From positions 1 to 43,480 of the forward strand of contig CAIRHQ010000190.1 in assembly GCA_903878475.1 (NCBI GenBank): a DNA stretch of 43,480 bases. Reading direction: 5' to 3'. Position numbers and translations under genes: made by a program. The notes under the pieces are model-generated. The model made no database searches. It was not told the origin of the DNA and was given only the letters and a program-made list of their open reading frames with translations. How positions within the stretch are numbered: the first letter of the stretch is position 1; every line of letters starts with the position of its first letter. This document shows, in pieces, positions 1-18,137 of the stretch. Source of the DNA: an uncultured Bacteroidota bacterium (GTDB lineage Bacteria > Bacteroidota > Bacteroidia > Chitinophagales > Chitinophagaceae).

Positions 1-684
1 AGCCGTAGTACCCCGCATCACCACGATGGGACCCATATGCACGGTTCCATCAAAGAAGCTGATGGGTGCCGGAGAAAATTTTGCAGTAGCCAACACTTGT
101 TTCCAAAGCTCGGTGGCTTCTTTACTCAACAGTAATACTTCCCTGAATTTGTCGATATCAAATTTTTGTCCGCTGGTTTGTTCACAAACCGGGATCATGG
201 ATTTGAACTGTTCACTCACATCATTGATCTCTGTATCAGTGACCTCATCGAGATAGCGAGGCGGGAATATGCCAATGGCAGGACATTTAAATTCTTTTGC
301 AAAAAAATCGAACCAGTCCTGCACTTCCCTGCATTGGTTGGTATTGTATACGATCAAGTCGGGCTTTGGAATTCCCTTCATACCATAATGATCCTGTAAG
401 GGCGTACGCTTATTCATGTATGCTCCAATATCACTGGTGAGATAAGAGCAAATATCTCCGGAGTATCCAAGGTTGACGGAGGATGCAATATGATCACCTG
501 CTTTACGGGTGGCGCCCAGCAAGGCTCCATGGTTCTCAGGAAAATATACTTCAAAACCAAATGAGCGAAGGAGTTCGGCAGGACCCACACTGGTACACCA
601 GGCTATTTTTTTTGCCTGTTCAAATCCCAGGAAATATTCCTTCATCAATTTGCGCAATTGCTTGGTGGCTTGTATCTCGTACAT
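1..684 (-). CDS. HgdB/BcrB-like 2-hydroxyacyl-CoA dehydratase family subunit (partial, C-terminus off the left edge)
   Basis: An open frame starts at the ATG at 684-682 and runs off the window, giving the first 228 residues. They match the 2-hydroxyacyl-CoA dehydratase / benzoyl-CoA reductase catalytic-subunit family. Family-typical segments are FPENHGALLGA (48-58), GDICSYLTSDIG (76-87), a conserved-looking Cys in NTNQCRE (115-121) and HMGPIVVMRGTTA (216-228), the counterpart of the IGP...FRGT segment of BcrB. Cys79 and Cys118 are the likeliest [4Fe-4S] ligands; this is inference. The start lies one base after the TAA of the acyl-CoA ligase (TAATATG), so the two are almost certainly cotranscribed and perhaps translationally coupled. 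It is not a duplicate of the bcrB at 4764-6065: the sequences differ clearly. Its substrate is unknown; a partner subunit may lie beyond the edge. Confidence 0.85.
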   Translation of the reverse strand, partial: MYEIQATKQLRKLMKEYFLGFEQAKKIAWCTSVGPAELLRSFGFEVYFPENHGALLGATRKAGDHIASSVNLGYSGDICSYLTSDIGAYMNKRTPLQDHYGMKGIPKPDLIVYNTNQCREVQDWFDFFAKEFKCPAIGIFPPRYLDEVTDTEINDVSEQFKSMIPVCEQTSGQKFDIDKFREVLLLSKEATELWKQVLATAKFSPAPISFFDGTVHMGPIVVMRGTTA

Positions 685-2451: not shown

Positions 2452-3291
2452 CTAAGCCATCATTTTTTCTTTTGCTGCCAGTTTCTCATGCCGGAATCCT
2501 CCCCACAATGCTGCTCCGATGGCACCGGCATAAGCAGCATCGGGATGGGTTTTGACAATGAATTTTTTATCCGAATCCTTTAGCTGTTCTTCCAGTGCCT
2601 GCATCATTCCGGTATTCAGTGCCATTCCGCCGGTAAGGATAATGGGCGACTCGGCCCTCAATGAACTCAATAATTTGATGACACGGTTGGCAATGGACAA
2701 ATGAATTCCCTTGATGATATTGGGCGTAGTGATGCCGCGCGATACCATATTGATCACATCTGTTTCTGCCAGCACCGCACATATTCCCGAGGATATTTCC
2801 GGATTATCGGCTTTCAGTGATACTTCACCCACTTCTTCAATAGATAATCCGAGATAGCGGGAAATATTTTCTACAAATTGTCCGGTACCTGATGCACATT
2901 GCCCGGTCATTTTATAATCGAGTACCCTTGCATCTGTAGAGATTCTGATGGCCCGCACAAATAAGGCTCCCATATCTACCACCGTCATGGCATCCGGGAA
3001 AAAATAATTTGCACCCCTAGCATGGGTGGTCATACCATAAAAATGTCCGCGTTTGCGTTTCACCAGATCCCCTTCACCGGTGGAAGCGAGATAAACGATA
3101 TCCTCATACTGGAGATTGAATTTTTTCAGCATCCCCTGGATCATTTCATCGGCCACCTGTGTAGGATTTCTTTTCCTGATCTTCTCGGTTTGCTTGTCGA
3201 GGAATTTCGGTGTGGCACCATATTCCATCAGCACCAACTTGATAAAGTTGCTACCCACATCAATCCCCATCGTATAATTTTTTTGTTCCAT
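2452..3291 (-). CDS. bcrD: Benzoyl-CoA reductase class I, subunit D (BcrD-type ATPase/activator)
   Basis: A 279-residue BadF/BadG/BcrA/BcrD-family ATPase. In class I benzoyl-CoA reductase, BcrA and BcrD form the ATP-hydrolysing electron activator, which carries one bridging [4Fe-4S] cluster. The ASKHA phosphate loop is GIDVGSNFIK (9-18). The second nucleotide segment is VVDMGAL (104-110). Cluster ligands are Cys132 in MTGQCASGTGQF (128-139) and Cys171 in SSGICAVLAETDVINMVS (167-184). The adenosine motif is LTGGMALN (219-226). TTHARGA (88-94), the SSGICAVLAETDV block and the C-terminal GAIGAALWGGFRHEKLA (256-272) agree with the remembered Thauera BcrD, more closely than with HgdC activators of dehydratases. 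It follows bcrA by 11 bp and precedes the ligase by 17 bp. Cytoplasmic. Confidence 0.9.
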   Translation of the reverse strand: MEQKNYTMGIDVGSNFIKLVLMEYGATPKFLDKQTEKIRKRNPTQVADEMIQGMLKKFNLQYEDIVYLASTGEGDLVKRKRGHFYGMTTHARGANYFFPDAMTVVDMGALFVRAIRISTDARVLDYKMTGQCASGTGQFVENISRYLGLSIEEVGEVSLKADNPEISSGICAVLAETDVINMVSRGITTPNIIKGIHLSIANRVIKLLSSLRAESPIILTGGMALNTGMMQALEEQLKDSDKKFIVKTHPDAAYAGAIGAALWGGFRHEKLAAKEKMMA

Positions 3292-3302
3292 GTTATTTTA
3301 TA

Positions 3303-4727
3303 TTAGTTCATGTCAATTTTTTCTTTTTTTGCGGAAGGCAGATCAGCCTTCATATTTCTTCTGGCAAACATGGCACCACCAAGGGCACCCATGAAGATGG
3401 AATCAGTATGAATATTGATCTTGATGGAACTACCATAATTTTCAAGCACCAATTGCGACAGATATTTAATCACCGCAGGGTTACGCGCCACACCACCCGT
3501 GAATGTAAATTCATTGAATACGCCACCCGAGCGGGCGATCAATGACATGGCACGCATGATGATGGCCTTATGTAATCCGGCAAGAATATCTTCACGTCTT
3601 TCGCCAAGATTGGTCAGTTCGCGCAACTCGGCACCGGCAAACACCGTGCAAGTAGAACAGATATTCACTTCTTTCTCTGCCTTCATAGCCATCGGACCCA
3701 GTTCATTCAATGAGATACTCATTTCATCAGCGATATAGCCGAGGTATCTTCCGCATCCTGCTGCACAACGGTCATTCATTTGGAAACTGGTAACCAATCC
3801 ATATTTATCTACCTGTATGGCTTTTGTATCTTGTCCGCCAATATCCAGCACCGTTCTGGTTTCCGGGAAGATGGCATGGGCACCAAAAGCATGACATAAT
3901 ATTTCTGATCGAATACAATCTTCGGGGAAAGGAAGTAAGGCACGGCCATATCCGGTTCCCGTCATATTGGAGATATTGAATTCGATTGTTGCAATTTCAT
4001 CAATATGTTCGCGAAGCGATTCGGATACATGATCGAAATTGCCTTTCAGCAAATTCATCTCGGCATCAAAATTCACAGAGGTTTCATCATTGGTGGTATC
4101 CGGAAGATTTTTATATTTTACTTTCAGTTCATCCATGGCCTTGTGGATGAGTTCCTTGAAATCGAATAGAACACGGATATTTTCTGCAGGACTGATACTT
4201 TTATCCCAAACCGTCATCAGGGGTTCAAACAATTCGGAACCCAGCTTATTCACTTCCTCATTGTATTTTTCAGAAACGATATCGCGGAAGAACTGATTTT
4301 TCGCGCCCAGATCGTTATACAAATAATCGTGTTTGATCACCGGCTTGAACGAGCGGCGTATGCTGCGCAGATGGTTGATATAGAACTCCTGGGTTTCTTC
4401 ATCCTTAAAGAAACTGCGACAGGTCTTTAATAATTCTTCGCCCAGCTTATCCAACCGCACTTTAAATTGTTCATACTGGAAAACACTCTCCAGGTCGTTG
4501 ATGTATTTTTTATAATGCGGATTGGCAGCGATCTCGGCTTCCAATTTTTTCTTAAGAATAGAAAAACGAGCATTGTATACTGCCTCATCGCGGGCGATAT
4601 CGGCCGCTACAGAATAATTGGCCCGGGTATTGGTGATGCCCCTACCAATGATCTCATCCTGTTCATTAATGATAACGGCTTTTGATGTAGTAGAACCCAG
4701 ATCAACACCGAGATAATATTTATTCAT
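3303..4727 (-). CDS. bcrA: Benzoyl-CoA reductase class I, subunit A (BcrA-type ATPase/activator)
   Basis: A 474-residue partner ATPase of BcrD. The N-terminal ASKHA loop is GVDLGSTTSKAV (7-18). It is followed by a charged, probably helical insertion of about 230 residues (about 25-255), after which the fold resumes with TGTGYGRALLPF (256-267). DIGGQDTKAI (295-304), NDRCAAGCGRYLG (318-330) and CSTCTVFAGAEL (357-368) follow; Cys321 and Cys360 are the likely [4Fe-4S] ligands. The adenosine motif is FTGGVARNP (409-417). The long insertion separates BcrA from the short HgdC activators (about 260 residues) and fits BcrA (about 440). The gene starts 36 bp after bcrB and ends 11 bp before bcrD. It is expected to pair with BcrD and pass electrons to BcrB/BcrC. 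Confidence 0.9.
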   Translation of the reverse strand: MNKYYLGVDLGSTTSKAVIINEQDEIIGRGITNTRANYSVAADIARDEAVYNARFSILKKKLEAEIAANPHYKKYINDLESVFQYEQFKVRLDKLGEELLKTCRSFFKDEETQEFYINHLRSIRRSFKPVIKHDYLYNDLGAKNQFFRDIVSEKYNEEVNKLGSELFEPLMTVWDKSISPAENIRVLFDFKELIHKAMDELKVKYKNLPDTTNDETSVNFDAEMNLLKGNFDHVSESLREHIDEIATIEFNISNMTGTGYGRALLPFPEDCIRSEILCHAFGAHAIFPETRTVLDIGGQDTKAIQVDKYGLVTSFQMNDRCAAGCGRYLGYIADEMSISLNELGPMAMKAEKEVNICSTCTVFAGAELRELTNLGERREDILAGLHKAIIMRAMSLIARSGGVFNEFTFTGGVARNPAVIKYLSQLVLENYGSSIKINIHTDSIFMGALGGAMFARRNMKADLPSAKKEKIDMN

Positions 4728-4763
4728 ATGCTTCGATTTCTTTTTTTATTTTATTATTTGTCA

Positions 4764-6065
4764 TTATACTTCCACGCCTTCCTGCGACAGGATGACCTTC
4801 CGCTGCCCCAGCATCTGGAAATAAGATTCCAGTCGGTTCTTGATATTGGCATAAGAGAAATATCGCGGATCAACCAGGTCACTCTCAATGAACCCAACAG
4901 GAACGCCTGAACGATGTTCGATCTCGCGCATGATCATGAGCTGACCGGCAGAGAATGAATTGCAACTTTTGATCGAGTTGATGAGAAAACCATCCGCCTT
5001 ATATTCCTTCACATAATCGGCCAGCAGGTTCACCCGTTGTGGCAGGTTCATATTGGTATAACAACCCATGCAGTATTTGGCCAAACTCTCGAGCGGTTCA
5101 TCCGGATCATGCCTGAATCCCAGATCATACACCCCTCCTACTTTTGTATAAGAAGAAGCCACGATCACGGCACCCATATCATAAAATATTTTCCAGAACT
5201 CGCGGAAATTGGTCCAGTTAGGAGGACCCTCTACCACCAACCTGAATTTTTCTTCCTTCATTTCACCTTCAGGCGTAATGGGGCCAAGTCCGAGCCGAAT
5301 TCTTTCCTGCACCTCATGATACAGTTCGGTATAATATTCAACTGCTGCATCTGTACCTCGGAAGGCTGTAAAAATGGGACCGATATAATACACGCCGGCG
5401 AAATAAGCATCAATGGGAGAAGGTTTGTGTTTGGCACTTTCCAGGATCTTTACCAACAGGTCTTCGGCCTTGGCAGAGTTGACCATCATCTTCGACAACC
5501 GATCCATATCAAATGCCTTTCCTGAAACCTGTTCCATTTTAGGGATCACCTCTTCTTTCAATTGTTTCACCATATACTCCAGCTGTTCGGGTGTGATCTT
5601 TCCATCTTCCTGATAAGGAGTATGCAACATGGCTACCGGTACGCCGGGATATAATCTTTCCAGGTTCTCGAACCATTTCATAAAAGTGAAACAACCTGTA
5701 TAACTTAAGAGTAAGAGATCGGGTGGAGGCAATGTTTCGCCGGTTGGACCGATATTTCCTTTCAGCATCATGCCGATATCGCATTTCACATAGGTACATA
5801 CATCTTCACTGAAGCCGAGCTTCTCTGCTTCACGGATATATTCTGCCGATTTTTTTCTCATACCCGATTGCAGGGCATTGATCTCGGGATATACAGGTAG
5901 CATATCAAACGATAGGATCAGTTCGGTTAAATTTCCCGGCACAAAAGTGTACACCACTTTTTTACCGGTTTCCTTTGTGTTACCGAGTTCTTTGAAAAGA
6001 TCCGCCAGCATATCCTTTTGGATCACCATGCTTTTTTCCTTGATCGCATCTTTTATATCTGCCAT
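4764..6065 (-). CDS. bcrB: Benzoyl-CoA reductase class I, subunit B (BcrB-type catalytic subunit)
   Basis: A 433-residue member of the HgdB/BcrB family, full length for BcrB. In class I enzymes BcrB and BcrC form the active-site half, with [4Fe-4S] clusters, where the CoA-bound aromatic ring is reduced. Recognisable blocks are TFVPGNLTELI (40-50), SEDVCTYVKCDIGMM (86-100), LLLSYTGCFTFMKWF (118-132), YYIGPIFTAFRGTDAAVEYY (226-245), EGPPNWTNFREFWK (279-292), YCMGCYTNMNLPQR (331-344) and INSIKSCNSFSAGQL (362-376). Cys90, Cys125, Cys335 and Cys368 are candidate cluster ligands. These blocks match the remembered Thauera BcrB almost word for word, much more closely than any HgdB. It lies between bcrC (52 bp) and bcrA (36 bp), the usual CBAD order. 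Confidence 0.92.
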   Translation of the reverse strand: MADIKDAIKEKSMVIQKDMLADLFKELGNTKETGKKVVYTFVPGNLTELILSFDMLPVYPEINALQSGMRKKSAEYIREAEKLGFSEDVCTYVKCDIGMMLKGNIGPTGETLPPPDLLLLSYTGCFTFMKWFENLERLYPGVPVAMLHTPYQEDGKITPEQLEYMVKQLKEEVIPKMEQVSGKAFDMDRLSKMMVNSAKAEDLLVKILESAKHKPSPIDAYFAGVYYIGPIFTAFRGTDAAVEYYTELYHEVQERIRLGLGPITPEGEMKEEKFRLVVEGPPNWTNFREFWKIFYDMGAVIVASSYTKVGGVYDLGFRHDPDEPLESLAKYCMGCYTNMNLPQRVNLLADYVKEYKADGFLINSIKSCNSFSAGQLMIMREIEHRSGVPVGFIESDLVDPRYFSYANIKNRLESYFQMLGQRKVILSQEGVEV

Positions 6066-6117
6066 AATCTAAATTTTAAACCGCAACACGCATGCACTGC
6101 GGGATGAACAAAATGGG

Positions 6118-7281
6118 TTAGGCCCATAATTTTATTGAATCAGAAAAAGTACCCGCCTGTTCTTTGATCACTTTGAACTGACCGGTATTTTCATGAAATT
6201 GAAAATTGATCTGTGGAATGCCTGCTGCGTCACATGCTTTTTGCATCTCGGGTTTATCGAGCAATGCCGGATCGCAAAAGCTCGCAGCACTAAAGATGAC
6301 GCCGTCGGCATGCCGTTCTTTTACCAATTTCACCAGCCGATCGCCCTTAGGATTACCTACATCGTATACGGCAGAAGAAAATGTACTCTTGGTCAAATAG
6401 GCATCAACTATTGCTCCCAAAGGATCATCGGATTTGTCATCCACATCACCCTGTATCCATCTTGAACCCAGCATAAGATCATCGTCAACAATATAACAAC
6501 CCGCCATTTCGATCGACTTGAGCAATCCAATGGGTGGTTGCTCGCAGAATGAACCGCTGATCACTACACGAATATTATCCAGTGGCTCTCCTCTTTCTTC
6601 ACTGATCACTTCAACCACCTGTTCTAGGATTTGGTTATGTTCTTCCACCGTCATCACCAAACCTGCACGAATAATATGATAGGTATCTACCGCAGACAAT
6701 CGCCAGGGATAATCCTGGCGTATCTGGTAAATATGTTCTATCAGTTTTCTGTTGGTATTATACAAACCGATGGCATGATTCAGCTTTTCGGTGCTGAGCT
6801 TAACGCCATTCACCTGGAACAGATCATCGAGGACTTTTTCCAGTTCTTGCCGGAAGAAAACGCCACCAATACTTGGACTAAAATTTTGAGGATAATCGAA
6901 ATACCGTTGAAATTTTCCGCGCTCCACTAATTTGAACATGCCGGAAAGATTGCGCACACAATCGCAGATGGCCGGAAAAACAAATCCGTCGAAATCATCC
7001 AGACTATTATCCAGCGCCATTTCAATTACGCCGCGGGGAAGGTGACAGATATACGACTGGTAATACGCATCCCCTTTGATGATCTGCTTACGATCGCCAA
7101 CGCCCATGATCCCCACGCCCATACCATTTACGGCATGAACGATCTCCCGGGGAAAATAGATCGGCAGAAAACCAAGCAGAAGTCTTCCGGGCTCGGCAGC
7201 TTTCCATTGACGGGCTTTGGAAAAATGCAGGTCAAAAGCCTGTTCGGTACAATGGGCAAGTAATGCATCTAATTGCTTCAT
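6118..7281 (-). CDS. bcrC: Benzoyl-CoA reductase class I, subunit C (BcrC-type catalytic subunit)
   Basis: A 387-residue first gene of the operon, of BcrC length (about 385). Blocks seen include LPIYFPREIVHAVNGM (39-54), YYQSYICHLPRGVIEMAL (73-90), FPAICDCVRNLSGMFKL (102-118), SGSFCEQPPIGL (242-253), GCYIVDDDLMLGSRW (261-275) and FSAASFCDPALLDKPEMQ (330-347). It ends ENTGQFKVIKEQAGTFSDSIKLW (364-386), like known BcrC. Cys79, Cys106, Cys246 and Cys336 are candidate cluster ligands. With BcrB it should bind the acyl-CoA and carry out the two-electron ring reduction. The ATG at 7281 follows a 380-bp gap, so the operon promoter should lie there, although no clear promoter was found. An alternative reading as a 2-hydroxyacyl-CoA dehydratase subunit is less likely, given all four Bcr-type partners in order. 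Confidence 0.9.
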   Translation of the reverse strand: MKQLDALLAHCTEQAFDLHFSKARQWKAAEPGRLLLGFLPIYFPREIVHAVNGMGVGIMGVGDRKQIIKGDAYYQSYICHLPRGVIEMALDNSLDDFDGFVFPAICDCVRNLSGMFKLVERGKFQRYFDYPQNFSPSIGGVFFRQELEKVLDDLFQVNGVKLSTEKLNHAIGLYNTNRKLIEHIYQIRQDYPWRLSAVDTYHIIRAGLVMTVEEHNQILEQVVEVISEERGEPLDNIRVVISGSFCEQPPIGLLKSIEMAGCYIVDDDLMLGSRWIQGDVDDKSDDPLGAIVDAYLTKSTFSSAVYDVGNPKGDRLVKLVKERHADGVIFSAASFCDPALLDKPEMQKACDAAGIPQINFQFHENTGQFKVIKEQAGTFSDSIKLWA

Positions 7282-10293: not shown

Positions 10294-11934
10294 TTATAAT
10301 GACACACCCCGCTTCCATGGAATAAAATCATCTTGATTAAGGAGTACTGCTTTCGGGATCAATTCTCCACTGGCGGCCTTGATACAATATTCCAATATGG
10401 CTTCCCCCATTTCTTCAATGGTCTTTTCTCCTTCTATTACTGGACCGGCATCAATGTCGATGATATCGCTCATGCGTTTCGCAAGATCACTGTTGGTAGC
10501 GATCTTAATAGTAGGACAAACAGGATTACCGGTTGGTGTTCCCAGTCCTGTAGTAAACAAGATCAGTGTAGCCCCGCTGGCAGCTTTTCCGGTGGTAGCT
10601 TCAACATCATTTCCAGGTGTACACACAAGACTTAAGCCGGGTTGCGTAGCTGGTTCTGTATAATCCAGCACATCCACTACCGGTGAACTGCCCCCTTTTT
10701 TTGCAGCACCGGCACTCTTCATAGCATCGGTGATCAAACCATCTTTGATATTTCCCGGGGAGGGGTTCATATGAAAACCCGATCCTGCCTTGATGGCCTG
10801 ATCAGCATAGACATTCATCAGCCGAATAAATTTTTGGGCAGTAGCTTCATTGGCGCTGCGGTCAATGAGATCCTGTTCAACACCGCAAAGCTCAGGGAAC
10901 TCGGCCAATAGAATTTTCCCGCCCAAGGCCACCACCAGATCACTGCAATATCCTACTGCAGGATTGGCTGAAATTCCACTAAATCCATCACTGCCACCAC
11001 ATTTAACACCAATACATAATTTACTGAGGGGCGCTGGTTTTCTCTCTTGTTGATTGATGTGCACCAACCCCGAAAAAGTTTTTTGTATCGCCGCAGTCAC
11101 CAATTGCTCTTCGCTTTGTGTTGACTGCTGTTCAAAAATATATAGTGGCTTATCAAACTCAGGGTCCAGTAACTTAATATCATTCAATAGGTCTTGCACC
11201 TGCAAATGCTGGCAACCTAAACTCAAGATGGTAATACCTCCTACGTTAGGATGATTGGCATAGGCGGCAAGCAGTTTCCCTAAAATAGCTGCATCCTGGC
11301 GCGTTCCGCCACACCCTCCCTGATGATTAAGAAATTTAATGCCGTCTACATTTTTAAATAAGCGGTTTGCAGGACCGGGTAATTGAGTATCCAGATTAAC
11401 CCCAGTGATATCTTCTCCATCCCTATAGGCATTTGCAAGTTCCTGTGTAAATCGTTTATACTTGCCCGTTACCGCGTAACCCAGTTCATTATGAAGCGCC
11501 TCTCTGATCACATCTAAATTCCGGTTTTCACAAAAAACTGTAGGAATGAAGAGCCAGTAATTGGCTGTACCCACTGCTCCATTTTGGCGATGGTAGCCAT
11601 TAAAGGTCCGGTTGATGAATTTTGACAGATCCGGTGGCTGCCAGGCATAGGATGTTTGCCGATATTGAAAAGGTTCGGCTGCATGTTTCAGGTTTTCGGT
11701 TGTGATCAATCCACCTTGTTCAACCCTGGCTTGAGCTTTCCCCACCAGCACACCATACATAATAACTGCATCCCCTTGCTGTAAAGTTTGGGTAACAAAT
11801 TTATGTTTGGCCGGTACAGCATCCACCAAAATAAAATCCGCCCCATTATGGCGAACTTGCTCTCCCTTATTTAATGCAACCAATGCCACCATTACATTAT
11901 CCATTGGATGCACTTGTAGAACTTTTTGCTTCAT
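10294..11934 (-). CDS. uxaA: Altronate dehydratase (UxaA)
   Basis: A 546-residue protein from the ATG at 11934 (MKQKVLQVHP). It dehydrates D-altronate to 2-keto-3-deoxy-gluconate in the galacturonate branch of hexuronate catabolism. The N-terminal SAF domain (about 1-95) is followed by the catalytic UxaA domain with NRTFNGYHRQNGAVGTANYW, HQGGCGG, SLGCQ, GVKCGGSDGFSG, HMNPSPGN and FTTGLGTPTGNP segments typical of the family. The frame opens upstream to a GTG at 11961, which lies directly against an AAGGAG; the ATG fits the family start better. No signal peptide. It is not accompanied by uxaB, uxaC, kdgK or kdgA here, which is unusual because these genes often cluster. Downstream is the tandem repeat. 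Confidence 0.93.
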   Translation of the reverse strand: MKQKVLQVHPMDNVMVALVALNKGEQVRHNGADFILVDAVPAKHKFVTQTLQQGDAVIMYGVLVGKAQARVEQGGLITTENLKHAAEPFQYRQTSYAWQPPDLSKFINRTFNGYHRQNGAVGTANYWLFIPTVFCENRNLDVIREALHNELGYAVTGKYKRFTQELANAYRDGEDITGVNLDTQLPGPANRLFKNVDGIKFLNHQGGCGGTRQDAAILGKLLAAYANHPNVGGITILSLGCQHLQVQDLLNDIKLLDPEFDKPLYIFEQQSTQSEEQLVTAAIQKTFSGLVHINQQERKPAPLSKLCIGVKCGGSDGFSGISANPAVGYCSDLVVALGGKILLAEFPELCGVEQDLIDRSANEATAQKFIRLMNVYADQAIKAGSGFHMNPSPGNIKDGLITDAMKSAGAAKKGGSSPVVDVLDYTEPATQPGLSLVCTPGNDVEATTGKAASGATLILFTTGLGTPTGNPVCPTIKIATNSDLAKRMSDIIDIDAGPVIEGEKTIEEMGEAILEYCIKAASGELIPKAVLLNQDDFIPWKRGVSL

Positions 11935-12041
11935 TGTTTCTGATATTTTTTCGCATGGCACTCCTTGCAGGAAATGTTGCCGGAATTAACAAAAGCAAAA
12001 CTGATACTTGCAGAACAATACTCCCCCACTGAAGATCGTTT

Positions 12042-15416: not shown

Positions 15417-15438
15417 TTTATTTACAAGGCTGCTTTTA

Positions 15439-15446
15439 CAAATTTA
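15439..15446 (-). promoter_or_regulatory. Putative -7 promoter element of the PAP2-eptA operon
   Basis: CAAATTTA on the plus strand is TAAATTTG on the minus strand, a perfect Bacteroidota -7 box, 22 nt before the PAP2 start. The expected TTTG at -33 is not recognisable, so this is a partial match. Confidence 0.4.
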
Positions 15447-15674
15447 TTTCAGCGGTACTGGTATTGTTAGACATTAATGAATATGTCAAATAATTTGTCA
15501 CCTTAAAATCTACATCCATTGCAGTTCCGATGTTCACATACTTGGAGCAGTAGCAGGAAAAAGTCCATTGGGACTGCCAGGCAGGTGCAGGAATCTGGGT
15601 AAACATGTAAAGTTACCGGCGAATTTAGTAAATCCTGAGTATTTAGCGCTTTATAAAAGCTCAAACTGGAATGC

Positions 15675-15694
15675 CTGCCAGTTGGCAGTTTTTT
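15675..15694 (+). terminator. Rho-independent-like terminator, plus strand
   Basis: Stem CTGCC (15675-15679), loop AGTT, stem GGCAG (15684-15688), then TTTTTT. It faces the plus strand, where no gene remains upstream, so it may be a relic of a deleted gene. Confidence 0.45.
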
Positions 15695-15776
15695 AATGCA
15701 TTACTATAGCCATGTAAGGATAAGGATGTAATCTACTTGCCTTCATGGATGTTTACAATTTGAATAAATAGGGCAT

Positions 15777-15802
15777 AAAAAATCCCGCATTATGCAGGAT
15801 TT
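15777..15802 (-). terminator. Terminator-like hairpin beside the att copy
   Basis: Arms AAATCC-C-GCA and TGC-A-GGATTT with loop TTA, followed on the minus strand by a run of T (plus-strand A 15777-15782). It sits 5 bp from the tRNA 3'-end copy at 15807. This mirrors the terminator 15 bp from the real tRNA. It could be the original tRNA-Ala terminator displaced by an integration; that is inference. Confidence 0.5.
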
Positions 15803-15806
15803 TGGA

Positions 15807-15891
15807 TTTGTGGAGAGTATCGGGCAAATGTCGAATAATTTATTGGATGAACTAAAGCAACTTTTGCAAATTCTTGACCTGTAATTATTGG
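15807..15891. repeat. att-like direct repeat of the tRNA-Ala 3' end
   Basis: The first 18 bases, TTTGTGGAGAGTATCGGG (15807-15824), are identical to 18134-18151, the last 14 bases of tRNA-Ala(GGC) plus four bases of flank. The following 67 bp resemble only the copy at 12961, not the tRNA. This is the arrangement left by integration into a tRNA 3' end. After the core a short frame reads MSNNLLDELKQLLQILDL (15828-15884), probably by chance. Confidence 0.8.
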
Positions 15892-15929
15892 AATAATTCG
15901 GAGACAATATATCACCAACCATCAAGTAG

Positions 15930-16265
15930 TTCATTTGGTTTGACTACCTACAAGCTAAATGGAATTTTAATATTAAAGACCAGGAAACAATCACCACAAC
16001 AACACTAACTAATATTCTTACTGAGCATCTAGCTATTGGAAAAAAAATAGATTTGTTAACAGTGGATGTGGAGGGCCATGAATGGGAAGTAATCAAGGGA
16101 CTTGATTTGAATTTGTATCGACCTACAATTATTGTATTGGAATGCCACAACCTTGAAGATTTTTCTAAAAGTTCAGTATATCAACATTTAATTGCTAACG
16201 AATACAAATTAGTTGGGTTTGTCATTATGAATGCTTATTTCCGTAACAGTAGAACTGAATCGTAA
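15930..16265 (+). pseudogene. FkbM-family methyltransferase, 5'-truncated remnant
   Basis: The open frame begins straight after a TAG at 15927 and reads 111 residues to a stop at 16265. Its core, KKIDLLTVDVEGHEWEVIKG (about 37-56), is the FkbM SAM-methyltransferase signature (DVEGxExxVLKG), and the rest fits the C-terminal part of that domain. The SAM-binding N-terminal half is missing and no ATG lies in the conserved part; a TTG at 16053 would give only 70 residues. Truncation falls within 40 bp of the end of the att-like repeat, so it was probably cut by a recombination event at the island border. FkbM enzymes typically O-methylate sugars or antibiotics; the original substrate is unknown. 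Confidence 0.7.
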
Positions 16266-16703
16266 AATCCAAGGTATTTAAACTACAGATACGTATAGTT
16301 TTTTTAAAATGAAAAAGCGAATTCCTGTTAGAATAGGTAAATCGTCGTGCTAAAGGAATTAATTGTTATAGTATTTAGTTAAGATACCACTGACGATTTG
16401 CAAATATTAGCTAGCAAAAGTTTTTGTTGTAGTTTAATTATTACAAATAAAATGATCCGTACTATTTTTATGAATAAGGTGGATAGGTAATAGAAATATG
16501 GTTTTATTTATCTTATTTTTGTTACACCACCAAAGTCGGTAAAAAATGTAAATATTGATCTTTGTCCTACTTGTATATACAACCTATTAAAAACCATGAA
16601 TAAACTCCACTGTTTAATTTCCTTTTTTTTGATTACTCTAAATCTGTTCCTTGCGTTAAGGATTAATTTATTTTAAAGTGCATAAGCATTAAATGAAAAC
16701 ATC
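16266..16703. other. AT-rich gap without a gene
   Basis: About 440 bp with only very short frames, such as a 26-codon hydrophobic frame at 16596-16676. A TATTTTTG box at 16514-16521 resembles a -7 element facing the DUF1566 gene, but it is about 180 bp upstream and has no -33 partner. I see nothing else. Confidence 0.4.
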
Positions 16704-17147
16704 ATGAAAAAATATCTCCTATTACTATTTACTGCCACCTTATTTCTAGGCACTGTAGGCAAAGCAATTGCACAAGGAAATACAATTGGCAAGCCTGTGA
16801 AATTTGGAAAATTACTAATTGCCCAATATGATATTGGAGAATTGAATTGGGCCGATGCCAAAAAAGCCTGTGCCAAATTGGGAACTGGTTGGCGCTTGCC
16901 AACAAAAGATGAACTTAATGTATTGTACGAAAACAAGGATTCTATTGGTGAATTTTATCCTATAAAATATCCTGGTGTTATTTTTTATTGGAGTGCTACG
17001 TTGAGTACATCTCGAGGTGACGCACAAAGCAATGCAAAAAATGCTTGGTTTCAAGATTTCGCAGATGGCAGTCAGAAAGATTTTGATAGCTATTGGTCAA
17101 GCAACAAGGTTGTTAAATACTATGTCCGTGCTGTTCGATCTTTTTAA
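16704..17147 (+). CDS. Secreted DUF1566 (Lcl C-terminal-like) domain protein
   Basis: A 147-residue protein with a signal peptide (MKKYLLLLFTATLFLGTVGKAIAQ). The mature part is one DUF1566-like domain: NWADAKKACAKLGTGWRLPTKDELNVLY, then YWSATLST, AWFQDFADGSQ and a terminal YYVRAVRSF. Each matches the family pattern (WRLPTxxEL...YWSS...A...F..G......RAVR). DUF1566 domains occur in surface and collagen-like-protein-associated modules and are thought to fold like C-type lectin/FGE domains. No function is known for this one. It is the only apparently intact gene between the att-like repeat and the integrase remnant, and the only plus-strand complete gene in the island, so it may be the surviving cargo. 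Confidence 0.75.
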   Translation: MKKYLLLLFTATLFLGTVGKAIAQGNTIGKPVKFGKLLIAQYDIGELNWADAKKACAKLGTGWRLPTKDELNVLYENKDSIGEFYPIKYPGVIFYWSATLSTSRGDAQSNAKNAWFQDFADGSQKDFDSYWSSNKVVKYYVRAVRSF

Positions 17148-17291
17148 TTTTTATCACTTTGTAAATCGTTGTATATCCCACCTAAGGGATTAATTAATCT
17201 GATTAAACACTCATTTTCGGCTCTTGTTTTCACAAACCGAAACTTAGAAAATATAAAAAAATGGTTCTTTGAGTCACGACCCAAGGCGTAA

Positions 17292-17564
17292 TATTTAGTT
17301 AAAAAAACAGACCTTCATTATCAACATTTATACGGTGAAATTAAATTAGCAAAAAATAAAAAATTTGTTCCAGCTTTTTTTAGATTAGGTAAAGCAGCCA
17401 TATTTCTTGGTTTAATAAGTTTAGTCTTACCTTTTTTTGGATTAAGGATTCGGGGTGCCGCTTATCTTGAACAACCAGGTGCAAAGCTTTATACAATTTT
17501 GGTGGGTGTAGGATTAGTGCTATTAGCATTTTTTGTTTCTGTAATGGACAAAGATGATAAATAG
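17292..17564 (+). pseudogene. Small two-helix membrane protein frame lacking a start codon
   Basis: A 90-codon open frame ends with MDKDDK and a TAG at 17562-17564. It opens directly after a TAA at 17289 and has no ATG before the last seven codons. It encodes two hydrophobic segments: about residues 37-49 (AAIFLGLISLVLPFF) and 67-83 (LYTILVGVGLVLLAFFV). The codon pattern looks coding, so it is probably a 5'-truncated gene, or one with a non-standard start. I do not recognise a family. It lies in the island debris. Confidence 0.4.
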
Positions 17565-17747
17565 TTTTATTTTTTCGCCTTACAGAAATTTCAACAATAC
17601 AGCATCATCATTTCTTTCATCGTTGGCTTTATTTCTTTCTTTTCCTCTTTTGAAGTTTTGCTATTGCTATAGCATATGTCTTCAAACCAAATTGAACTAA
17701 TTCTTGGAGTGTGTTTAGCGCACTTTTTGCTGAAGACTTACAACTAG

Positions 17748-18032
17748 TTACTGTAACTTATTTTGCCTTAAATATTCTTTAGGAGTGCAACCTTTTATTT
17801 TTTTGAAAGAAGAATAAAAGGAAGGCTTGCTGCCAAACCTGTAAATCGTCAGCACAATCTGAAGAGCTGTTTTTCCAGCTTGCAGAAGATTCAGTTTATT
17901 ATAGATAGATAAACTGAGGGAATATCTTTTGCCTTGATACCTCCATCTTAGTCTTATACGACCTTCACAATTAGTAATTGAAACTGCTCCTTTGTTGGAT
18001 TTCTGACCCAAACCTGACCCAAACTGATCCAT
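17748..18032 (-). pseudogene. Integrase N-terminus fused to an AraC-type C-terminus (chimeric remnant)
   Basis: A 94-residue frame made of two unrelated pieces. Residues 1-46 (MDQFGSGLGQ..., AVSITNCEGRIRLRWRYQGK, RYSLSLSIYNK) match the arm-type DNA-binding N-terminus (DUF3596-like) of phage tyrosine integrases, which normally exceed 300 residues. From about residue 48 the frame reads as the last helices of an AraC-family HTH: LLQAGKTALQIV, then YRFGSKPSFYSSFKKIKGCT and PKEYLRQ. The catalytic integrase domain (R...HxxR...Y) is absent, and so is most of the regulator. The start is about 105 bp from the tRNA 3' end, the usual site for an integrase next to its attachment site. The parsimonious reading is a deletion joining two genes. 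Activity is not expected. Confidence 0.7.
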
Positions 18033-18091
18033 TTGATACCCAATTTAATTATGACTGGGTCAAATTTGGCACCGTAAAATGAGATGGAAAT

Positions 18092-18119
18092 AAAAAAAGC
18101 CCTTCATTTAGAAGGGCTT
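18092..18119 (-). terminator. Rho-independent terminator downstream of tRNA-Ala
   Basis: Arms AAGCCCTTC (18097-18105) and GAAGGGCTT (18111-18119) with loop ATTTA, followed on the minus strand by seven T. It lies 19 bp past the tRNA 3' end in the direction of tRNA transcription. Confidence 0.85.
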
Positions 18120-18137
18120 ATACACTACAAGTGTTTG

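Follow-up and report, generated by a model that had tools for sequence, protein, structure and literature searches.

The anaerobic opening of the benzene ring is an ability mostly known from bacteria other than Bacteroidota, which are usually cast as degraders of polysaccharides and proteins. Here, we describe four adjacent genes, bcrCBAD, that very probably encode a genuine Bcr-type class I (ATP-dependent) benzoyl-coenzyme A (CoA) reductase (BCR) within a catabolic operon for benzoyl-CoA. They lie on a 43,480-nucleotide stretch of DNA (hereafter, the window) from an uncultured Chitinophagaceae bacterium (Bacteroidota). In the described class I enzyme BzdNO, the catalytic [4Fe-4S] cluster is held by Cys95, Cys128, and Cys380, with Glu65 and His131 near it, and an [8Fe-9S] cluster is held by six Cys of BzdN (available part of PMC11971306).

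Anaerobic benzoyl-CoA degradation has been mentioned in Bacteroidota before. Indeed, the available part of PMC8099898 states that MAG 18, a Bacteroidota metagenome-assembled genome (MAG) from a benzene-degrading nitrate-reducing reactor, expresses peptidases and enzymes of this pathway, and the present locus is not the first mention. This was the one such statement in the open-access literature; subscription literature lay outside the scope, and earlier reports may exist. The bcrABCD genes have also been reported in Krumholzibacteriota MAGs, and other pathway genes were likewise called rare among 37 representative genomes of the Fibrobacteres-Chlorobi-Bacteroidetes superphylum (PMC10936416, in part). 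A survey of benzoate-CoA ligases found them in Proteobacteria (PMC10803450, in part), and the available parts of PMC10477309, PMC10116835, PMC11362221, and PMC4846661 name no Bacteroidota bcr genes.

The bcrCBAD genes, their host contig and their distribution

Four unbroken open reading frames (ORFs) on the minus strand, separated by small gaps, make up the locus. The bcrC gene (6118-7281, 387 aa) is assigned to the gamma or electron-transfer subunit, bcrB (4764-6065, 433 aa) to the catalytic subunit, and bcrA (3303-4727, 474 aa) and bcrD (2452-3291, 279 aa) to ATPase/activator subunits. The naming is based on NCBIfam equivalog models with curated cut-offs, which were exceeded by BcrB (TIGR02260, 707 bits, cut-off 487), BcrC (TIGR02263, 443 bits, cut-off 421), and BcrD (TIGR02261, 320 bits, cut-off 313). 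The best family of BcrA was TIGR02259 with 439 bits, below the cut-off of 578, and the runner-up family reached only 181 bits. The same model gave 422-441 bits in the relatives tested; since the other three subunits pass their cut-offs, the shortfall can be read as divergence of BcrA in this lineage. Against its 707 bits, BcrB scored 89 bits with the BzdO model and 185 bits with the HadB model, and BcrC likewise scored far lower with the Bzd- and Had-type models. The superfamily domains PF06050 and PF01869 were found in the bcr gene products. An initial annotation of the window had read these ORFs as BcrC, BcrB, BcrA, and BcrD and had pointed to near-exact sequence blocks: the ORFs lie where it placed them, NCBIfam agrees (with BcrA below the cut-off), and the blocks are present, SSGICAVLAETDV in BcrD and EGPPNWTNFREFWK in BcrB. 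The gene set is not a product of chance.

A scan of public species genomes for BcrB gave at least 591 candidate stretches, at least 580 of which were confirmed as relatives of some degree; the best 80 were examined. The three Cys of the [4Fe-4S] cluster and the Glu equivalent to BzdO Glu65 and HadB Glu55 were conserved in all 80 BcrB rows, and the position of HadB Ser37 was occupied by Val or Ile in 80/80. In BcrC, three of the six [8Fe-9S] Cys positions of BzdN were conserved in 72/72 rows, and three other Cys (residues 11, 246, and 262 of the window's BcrC) in at least 68/72. All six conserved Cys (each in at least 68/72 rows) are common to MbdN, and BcrC may perhaps hold the same type of cluster as BzdN with a different set of ligands.

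In an IQ-TREE phylogeny of 46 rows with Mbd, Bzd, and Had references from the PDB, BcrB grouped with MbdO (support 94/84) and BcrC with MbdN (98/95), in a tree for which the tool warned that long branches meet and deep joins are uncertain. The initial annotation had named a placement with the 2-hydroxyacyl-CoA dehydratases as the result that would speak against it; among these PDB references, both subunits fell away from HadB and HadC.

The window is the entire contig C190 of a 2.85-Mb genome in 245 contigs (listed as 100% complete and 1.08% contaminated), and it also encodes citrate synthase, SecY, and the S10/spc ribosomal proteins. Because the bcr operon shares its contig with the S10/spc operon, mis-binning is very unlikely; the Bacteroidota setting proposed at first thus holds, and the bcr genes are linked to the Bacteroidota chromosome. 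The GC content of the operon, 0.42-0.45, matched that of most of the contig (minimum 0.32 at 16-18 kb), and GC at third codon positions (GC3) was 0.45-0.50 in five operon genes vs 0.39-0.47 in nine other contig genes. In tetranucleotide composition, the block formed by the bcr and ligase genes correlated least with the remainder of the contig (r 0.82), and sliding windows gave 0.83-0.85 over this stretch vs 0.85-0.96 elsewhere, which could be taken as a weak hint of foreign origin.

By name, the best 80 BcrB loci comprised 70 Bacteroidota, three Chlorobiota, two Ignavibacteriota, two Pseudomonadota, one Armatimonadota, and two that belong to neither, and the titles of many pointed to lake, groundwater, or bioreactor MAGs. 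In a set of 395 Bacteroidota genomes (taken as one sample throughout, since the genome handles agree), the BcrB cut-off was passed in three. BcrB was found in none of the 23 other species of the window's genus and in two of the 39 relatives searched, the window's genome counted. The mapping of Bacteroidota carriers, suggested in the initial annotation, therefore gave a divided answer: they are present (70 of the 80 nearest loci) but scarce (3/395 genomes), and bcr in Bacteroidota is patchy. Two single-contig Bacteroidota genomes, G097 and G332, carry the operon.

In a BcrB tree of 81 rows, MAGs named as Ignavibacteriales, Competibacteraceae, and Flavobacteriales were intermingled; since differently named MAGs mix, transfer or mis-binning is indicated. 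A search of a plasmid collection for named proteobacterial Bcr references yielded 14 records, none of which reached 60% identity; the best rows stood at 23-27%. On an Armatimonadetes-named contig (L038), bcrCBAD was 73-82% identical to the window's genes, and no later operon genes lay within 12.3 kb.

Operon, pathway genes and the KPR-HGD3-activase module

The operon extends past the start of the window, a continuation missed in the initial annotation. Downstream of bcrD, on the same minus strand, lies a gene for an AMP-forming acyl/aryl-CoA ligase (686-2434; PF00501, 219 bits), for which no NCBIfam ligase model was above its cut-off among the matches listed (25 of 103 families). It is followed by the 5' part of a third gene of the HGD-D kind (2-hydroxyacyl-CoA dehydratase/BCR alpha-type; PF06050), which we call HGD3 (1-684), truncated by the contig end. 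The remainder of HGD3 appears to lie on contig C230 (locus L005) and is followed by a fusion of ketopantoate-reductase (KPR) and activase domains, a thiolase gene, had, and the start of oah; contig C2 carries the rest of oah, a dch-like gene, and a fadJ-like gene. The ends of C2 and C230 overlap exactly over 141 bases. Those of C230 and the window (L005 5024-5157, window 1-134) are identical at 129 of 134 bases, and given these five differences the junction may mix co-assembled strains. The operon appears to run from the window into C230 and C2, in the order C2-C230-C190.

In G097, a single piece (L115) carries fadJ-like, dch, oah, had, thl, the activase-KPR fusion, hgd3, ligase, bcrD, a saccharopine-dehydrogenase-like gene, bcrA, bcrB, and bcrC, and the stretch of G332 examined (L116) runs from oah through bcrC. 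A saccharopine-dehydrogenase-like gene, identified by eye, separates bcrA from bcrD in 6/80 loci (L016, L023, L033, L043, L052, and L085) as well as in L115. In L116 (4694-8398, minus strand), genes similar to hcrA/C and hcrB lie between those of KPR and activase, two domains that many other loci encode as a fusion.

Two pathway proteins reached equivalog level, Had (TIGR03201, 458 bits, cut-off 339) and Oah (TIGR03200, 520 bits, cut-off 464). The search for dch, had, and oah suggested at first was thus answered for had and oah, and for dch by a gene whose best family, TIGR03189, gave 225 bits, below the cut-off of 292. The initial annotation had offered anaerobic ring reduction as its first explanation, and the presence of had, oah, dch-like, thiolase, fadJ-like, and CoA ligase genes in what is apparently one operon speaks for it. 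The predicted gene set supports a Thauera-type benzoyl-CoA pathway.

Genes similar to those of 4-hydroxybenzoyl-CoA reductase (Hcr) were found on contig C196 of the window's genome (HcrA 803 bits, HcrB 223 bits, below cut-off), and in locus L049 HcrA-like and HcrB-like proteins scored 811 vs 995 and 215 vs 405 bits. An hcrAC-like gene was present in 25/80 loci; where at least 6 kb upstream of bcrC was available (49 loci), it lay there in 21, within a divergent block hcrB-hcrAC-SDR-xdhC-mobA (SDR, short-chain dehydrogenase/reductase).

The genome also encodes a VorB-type 2-oxoacid:ferredoxin oxidoreductase (560 bits, cut-off 399) and, at a contig end, a partial KorA-like gene (412 bits, cut-off 483); therefore, ferredoxin reduction is plausible. 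Three COX1-family proteins were found, by eye two of them terminal-oxidase-like and one NorB-like, adjoining a small c-type protein, with no NCBIfam match for the NorB-like protein. Nitrate respiration via NarG was considered and set aside: NarG is absent from the genome, where the sole match, of 21 bits, falls in an ORF that by eye is formate-dehydrogenase-like. In a sister MAG (L019, 2-1597, minus strand), visual inspection showed a NarG-like ORF some 7 kb upstream of bcrC. The host is probably a facultative anaerobe, as judged from its gene content.

We evaluated how the genes following bcrD are conserved. In 68 of the 80 loci, bcrD lay on the right strand, and the denominators below are the loci with enough room. 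A CoA ligase, AMP- or ADP-forming, followed in 56/57 loci with at least 4 kb, HGD3 in 48/55 with at least 5 kb, KPR in 40/43 with at least 7.5 kb, and the activase domain in 33/43. Five of the seven loci lacking HGD3 (L065, L066, L068, L074, and L084) show a layout with an ADP-forming ligase followed by KPR. Where HGD3 is seen in this layout, it stands after dch (L058, L069, L079, and L081; its start only in L068), and thus it may be out of range in those five. In L038 and L075, HGD3 was not found within range.

Among the 395 genomes, strong HGD3 matches (62-83% identity; in two pieces in the window's genome) were confined to the window's genome (G000), G097, G332, and G198; matches in 14 other genomes were partial and at most 34% identical. 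The same four alone had KPR matches of at least 51% and activase matches of at least 49%. The next-best matches over 200 residues were at most 25% for KPR and 35% for activase, and 98/395 genomes had any match. By the BcrB or BzdO model, class I BCRs were likewise restricted to these four, three of the Bcr type and one, G198, of the Bzd type. Since the four genomes coincide whichever subtype they carry, the module goes with benzoyl-CoA metabolism under anaerobic conditions and not with a single reductase subtype, a co-occurrence that rests on four genomes, which are few. In G198, HGD3, KPR (in two places), and activase lie on separate contigs, one KPR being beside hcrB/xdhC/mobA-like genes. 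The Bzd-type reductase of G198 (L140, C15:100000-112000, at 3090-7217, plus strand) scored above the cut-offs for BzdN (485 bits), BzdO (about 658-659 bits, cut-off 449), and BzdQ (444 bits), and about 3 kb beyond these genes lies one for an ADP-forming CoA ligase that shares 69% identity with the L058 ligase.

The activase part of the KPR fusion matched TIGR00241 with 166 bits (cut-off 125), and the conserved blocks of KPR include W.KTILN and TEI...NGK, which we take to contain the Lys and Glu that are catalytic in PanE. No statement on the KPR-HGD3-activase module was met in the literature, where no search was aimed at that gene arrangement.

HGD3 has the equivalents of the HadB Cys triad, Ser37, and Glu55 (54/54 rows); the Ser37 equivalent is Ser in 54/54 HGD3 and in 0/80 BcrB, and the active site of HGD3 is dehydratase-like at the level of predicted residues. 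In the 46-row tree, HGD3 formed a clade of its own (100/99), separate from BcrB. An AlphaFold model (mean predicted local distance difference test score 83) gave TM-scores of 0.87-0.88 with HadB, 0.84-0.86 with MbdO, 0.80-0.82 with BzdO, 0.71-0.76 with the double-cubane cluster protein (DCCP), and 0.67-0.70 with beta-type subunits. By Foldseek E-value MbdO ranked first, phmmer placed MbdO (157 bits) slightly above HadB (148 bits), and the NCBIfam models gave 199 bits for HadB vs 162 for BcrB, both far below the cut-off. As TM-score, Foldseek, and phmmer rank HadB and MbdO differently, the family of HGD3 is clear and its substrate is not readable from sequence. In the window's genome, three HGD-D proteins were found (BcrB, BcrC, and HGD3), so HGD3 seems to have no beta subunit of its own. 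Known 2-hydroxyacyl-CoA dehydratases are described as alpha-beta heterodimers (PMC11574389, in part), and for want of such a partner HGD3 is not filed as one of them, only as working like one. Furthermore, Cys30 and Cys289 of HGD3 were invariant in 14/14; Cys289 aligns with BzdN Cys263 and DCCP Cys309, and Cys30 falls one position away from BzdN Cys36.

Proposed reactions and alternative readings

By analogy with characterized relatives, BcrA and BcrD would use ATP to drive electrons supplied by reduced ferredoxin via BcrC onto the BcrB [4Fe-4S] cluster, where benzoyl-CoA would be reduced to 1,5-dienoyl-CoA. Judging from family identity and the known pathway order, Dch, Had, and Oah would carry out hydration, oxidation, and ring opening to 3-hydroxypimeloyl-CoA, which the FadJ-like enzyme and thiolase would shorten. 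The CoA ligase of the operon could supply the benzoyl-CoA, perhaps together with the Hcr-like enzyme.

Several points weigh against this reading. BcrA falls below the curated cut-off in the window and in 6/6 relatives tested, Dch does so in the window's genome and in 2/2 relatives (235 and 212 bits), and the HcrA- and HcrB-like proteins also score below theirs; NarG in the window's genome is represented by a single 21-bit match vs a cut-off of 1084. By eye, Phe takes the place of BzdO His131 in BcrB and in MbdO, and nothing corresponds to Trp46. Three of the six [8Fe-9S] Cys of BzdN are missing from BcrC, the same three that MbdN lacks. The operon is split over three contigs, and the overlap between the window and C230 is inexact. 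Taken jointly, we still consider the enzyme and its benzoyl-CoA pathway very probable.

The KPR-HGD3-activase module may be a further ATP-primed radical enzyme with a link to the catabolism of aromatics. KPR would reduce a 2-oxoacid to an (R)-2-hydroxyacid, a ligase would add CoA, and activase-primed HGD3 would dehydrate the 2-hydroxyacyl-CoA to an enoyl-CoA through a ketyl radical, as known dehydratases do. The enoyl-CoA would then be hydrated, oxidized, and thiolysed to (4-hydroxy)benzoyl-CoA, as in a feed from phenylpyruvate through phenyllactate and cinnamoyl-CoA to benzoyl-CoA. Because the genome has an Hcr-like enzyme, phenylpyruvate and hydroxyphenylpyruvate could both end as benzoyl-CoA. 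A route from phenylpyruvate through phenyllactyl-CoA and cinnamoyl-CoA to benzoyl-CoA has been put forward hypothetically in the case of a benzene degrader (PMC13416013, in part), and the peptidases and benzoyl-CoA enzymes stated for MAG 18 would fit an amino-acid diet. Against the module's role as a feeder stands the absence of a beta subunit for HGD3; we hold the reaction type and direction (a feeder of 2-hydroxyacids, perhaps phenyllactate) as a tentative proposal. Somewhat more speculative is the fuller version, in which HGD3, as a homodimer or borrowing BcrC or BzdN, would feed the keto acids of Phe and Tyr with KPR and activase via (hydroxy)cinnamoyl-CoA, one operon would lead to the opened ring, and the two extra invariant Cys, of which one occupies a double-cubane position and the other neighbors a further such position, may hold an unusual cluster.

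Two other roles for the module are unlikely in our view. It could stand at the far end of the pathway, where HGD3 in reverse would turn glutaconyl-CoA into (R)-2-hydroxyglutaryl-CoA and, once the acid is freed, KPR would give 2-oxoglutarate for a 2-oxoacid:ferredoxin oxidoreductase that supplies the BCR with electrons. The restriction of the module to genomes with class I BCRs of either subtype is what a common lower-pathway role would lead one to expect, and oxidoreductase genes of this kind are in the genome, but a non-decarboxylating glutaryl-CoA dehydrogenase would be required. To our knowledge, a reversed dehydratase has no precedent in catabolism, which also counts against it. Alternatively, HGD3 could be a second catalytic subunit that pairs with BcrC and widens the reductase to other aryl-CoA esters. 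BcrC is the sole beta/gamma-type partner among the genome's HGD-D proteins, and HGD3 lies inside the bcr operon in 48/55 loci with room; however, HGD3 keeps the dehydratase Ser in 54/54 rows, is nearest to HadB by TM-score, has an activase of its own, and is also encoded in G198, in which BzdN, a very different protein, was the one class I gamma subunit observed.

For the reductase itself, a main substrate other than benzoyl-CoA (a substituted benzoyl-CoA or another aryl-CoA) is rather improbable. The nearest solved relative is the 3-methylbenzoyl-CoA reductase MbdONPQ of Thauera chlorobenzoica, and the operon ligase's substrate is not fixed by any NCBIfam match listed, but BcrB, BcrC, and BcrD pass the Bcr equivalog cut-offs and the equivalogs encoded in the operon, Had and Oah, belong to the unsubstituted pathway.

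Two readings are rejected as extremely improbable. The first, a Had/Hgd/Fld-type 2-hydroxyacyl-CoA dehydratase misread as a BCR, would explain the shared superfamily domains and the 185-bit match of BcrB to the HadB model, but not three subunits above BCR cut-offs, two ATPase subunits of the BcrA/BcrD kind, Val or Ile for HadB Ser37 in every BcrB row, the tree joining BcrB and BcrC to MbdO and MbdN, or had and oah, which are dearomatization genes, in the operon. The second, a mis-assembled or mis-binned proteobacterial piece, would suit the operon's absence from 23 congeners and the lowest tetranucleotide correlation on the contig, but it is contradicted by the citrate synthase gene and S10/spc operon on the same contig, by the GC and GC3 values, and by similar operons in Chitinophagaceae-named MAGs (L014 and L020) and in the single-contig genomes G097 and G332.

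Elsewhere in the window, positions 15417-18136 have low GC (about 0.32-0.36), a single ORF of at least 120 aa (147 aa), and a tRNA-Ala at the end; a tRNA was the sole Rfam match in the window. A gene at 10294-11961 (minus strand) encodes a protein of the altronate/galactarate dehydratase family (galactarate dehydratase model, 292 bits, far below the cut-off of 731).

Significance and comparison with known systems

If the benzoyl-CoA reading is true, anaerobic ring reduction would be a patchily spread trait of Bacteroidota, and markers built on Proteobacteria may undercount the turnover of aromatic carbon in lake, groundwater, and bioreactor settings. The module poses a testable question of enzymology, namely, the role of an alpha-only 2-hydroxyacyl-CoA-dehydratase-like enzyme beside a BCR.

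MAG 18 resembles the present case in placing benzoyl-CoA degradation in Bacteroidota, and the class of its reductase is not named in the available part of PMC8099898. MAG 18 and the Krumholzibacteriota MAGs are Bacteroidota or superphylum relatives, for which the accessible parts of the sources describe neither operon structure nor an HGD3-like module.

The closest enzymes are those of the Bcr/Mbd type (NCBIfam Bcr models; MbdONPQ, PDB 9g87 and 9gai), which share with the window four subunits, the order C-B-A-D, the active-site Cys and Glu, the six BcrC Cys found in MbdN, and had/oah/dch-like genes nearby. The present system differs from them in its Bacteroidota host, in BcrA and Dch scoring under curated cut-offs, and in the conserved KPR-HGD3-activase module in the operon. 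The Bzd-type BCR (BzdNOPQ, PDB 8s02) belongs to the same enzyme class and catalyzes the same reaction, but the window's BcrB reaches 89 bits with the BzdO model and the Cys set of BcrC is different.

HGD3 is similar to the 2-hydroxyacyl-CoA dehydratases (HadBC, PDB 3o3m; phenyllactate dehydratase FldABC) in its cluster Cys, in the Ser37 and Glu55 positions, and in fold (TM-score 0.87-0.88), and it too is accompanied by an activase and a 2-oxoacid-reductase-like partner. Unlike them, it appears without a beta subunit of its own, its activase is fused to a ketopantoate-reductase domain, it sits in a benzoyl-CoA operon, and it has two extra invariant Cys, 30 and 289. Finally, DCCP (PDB 6eno and 7yyl) pairs one HGD-D protein with an activase, as HGD3 does, and Cys289 corresponds by alignment position to DCCP Cys309, whereas HGD3 holds only some of the double-cubane Cys of BzdN and is nearer to HadB (TM-score with DCCP, 0.71-0.76).

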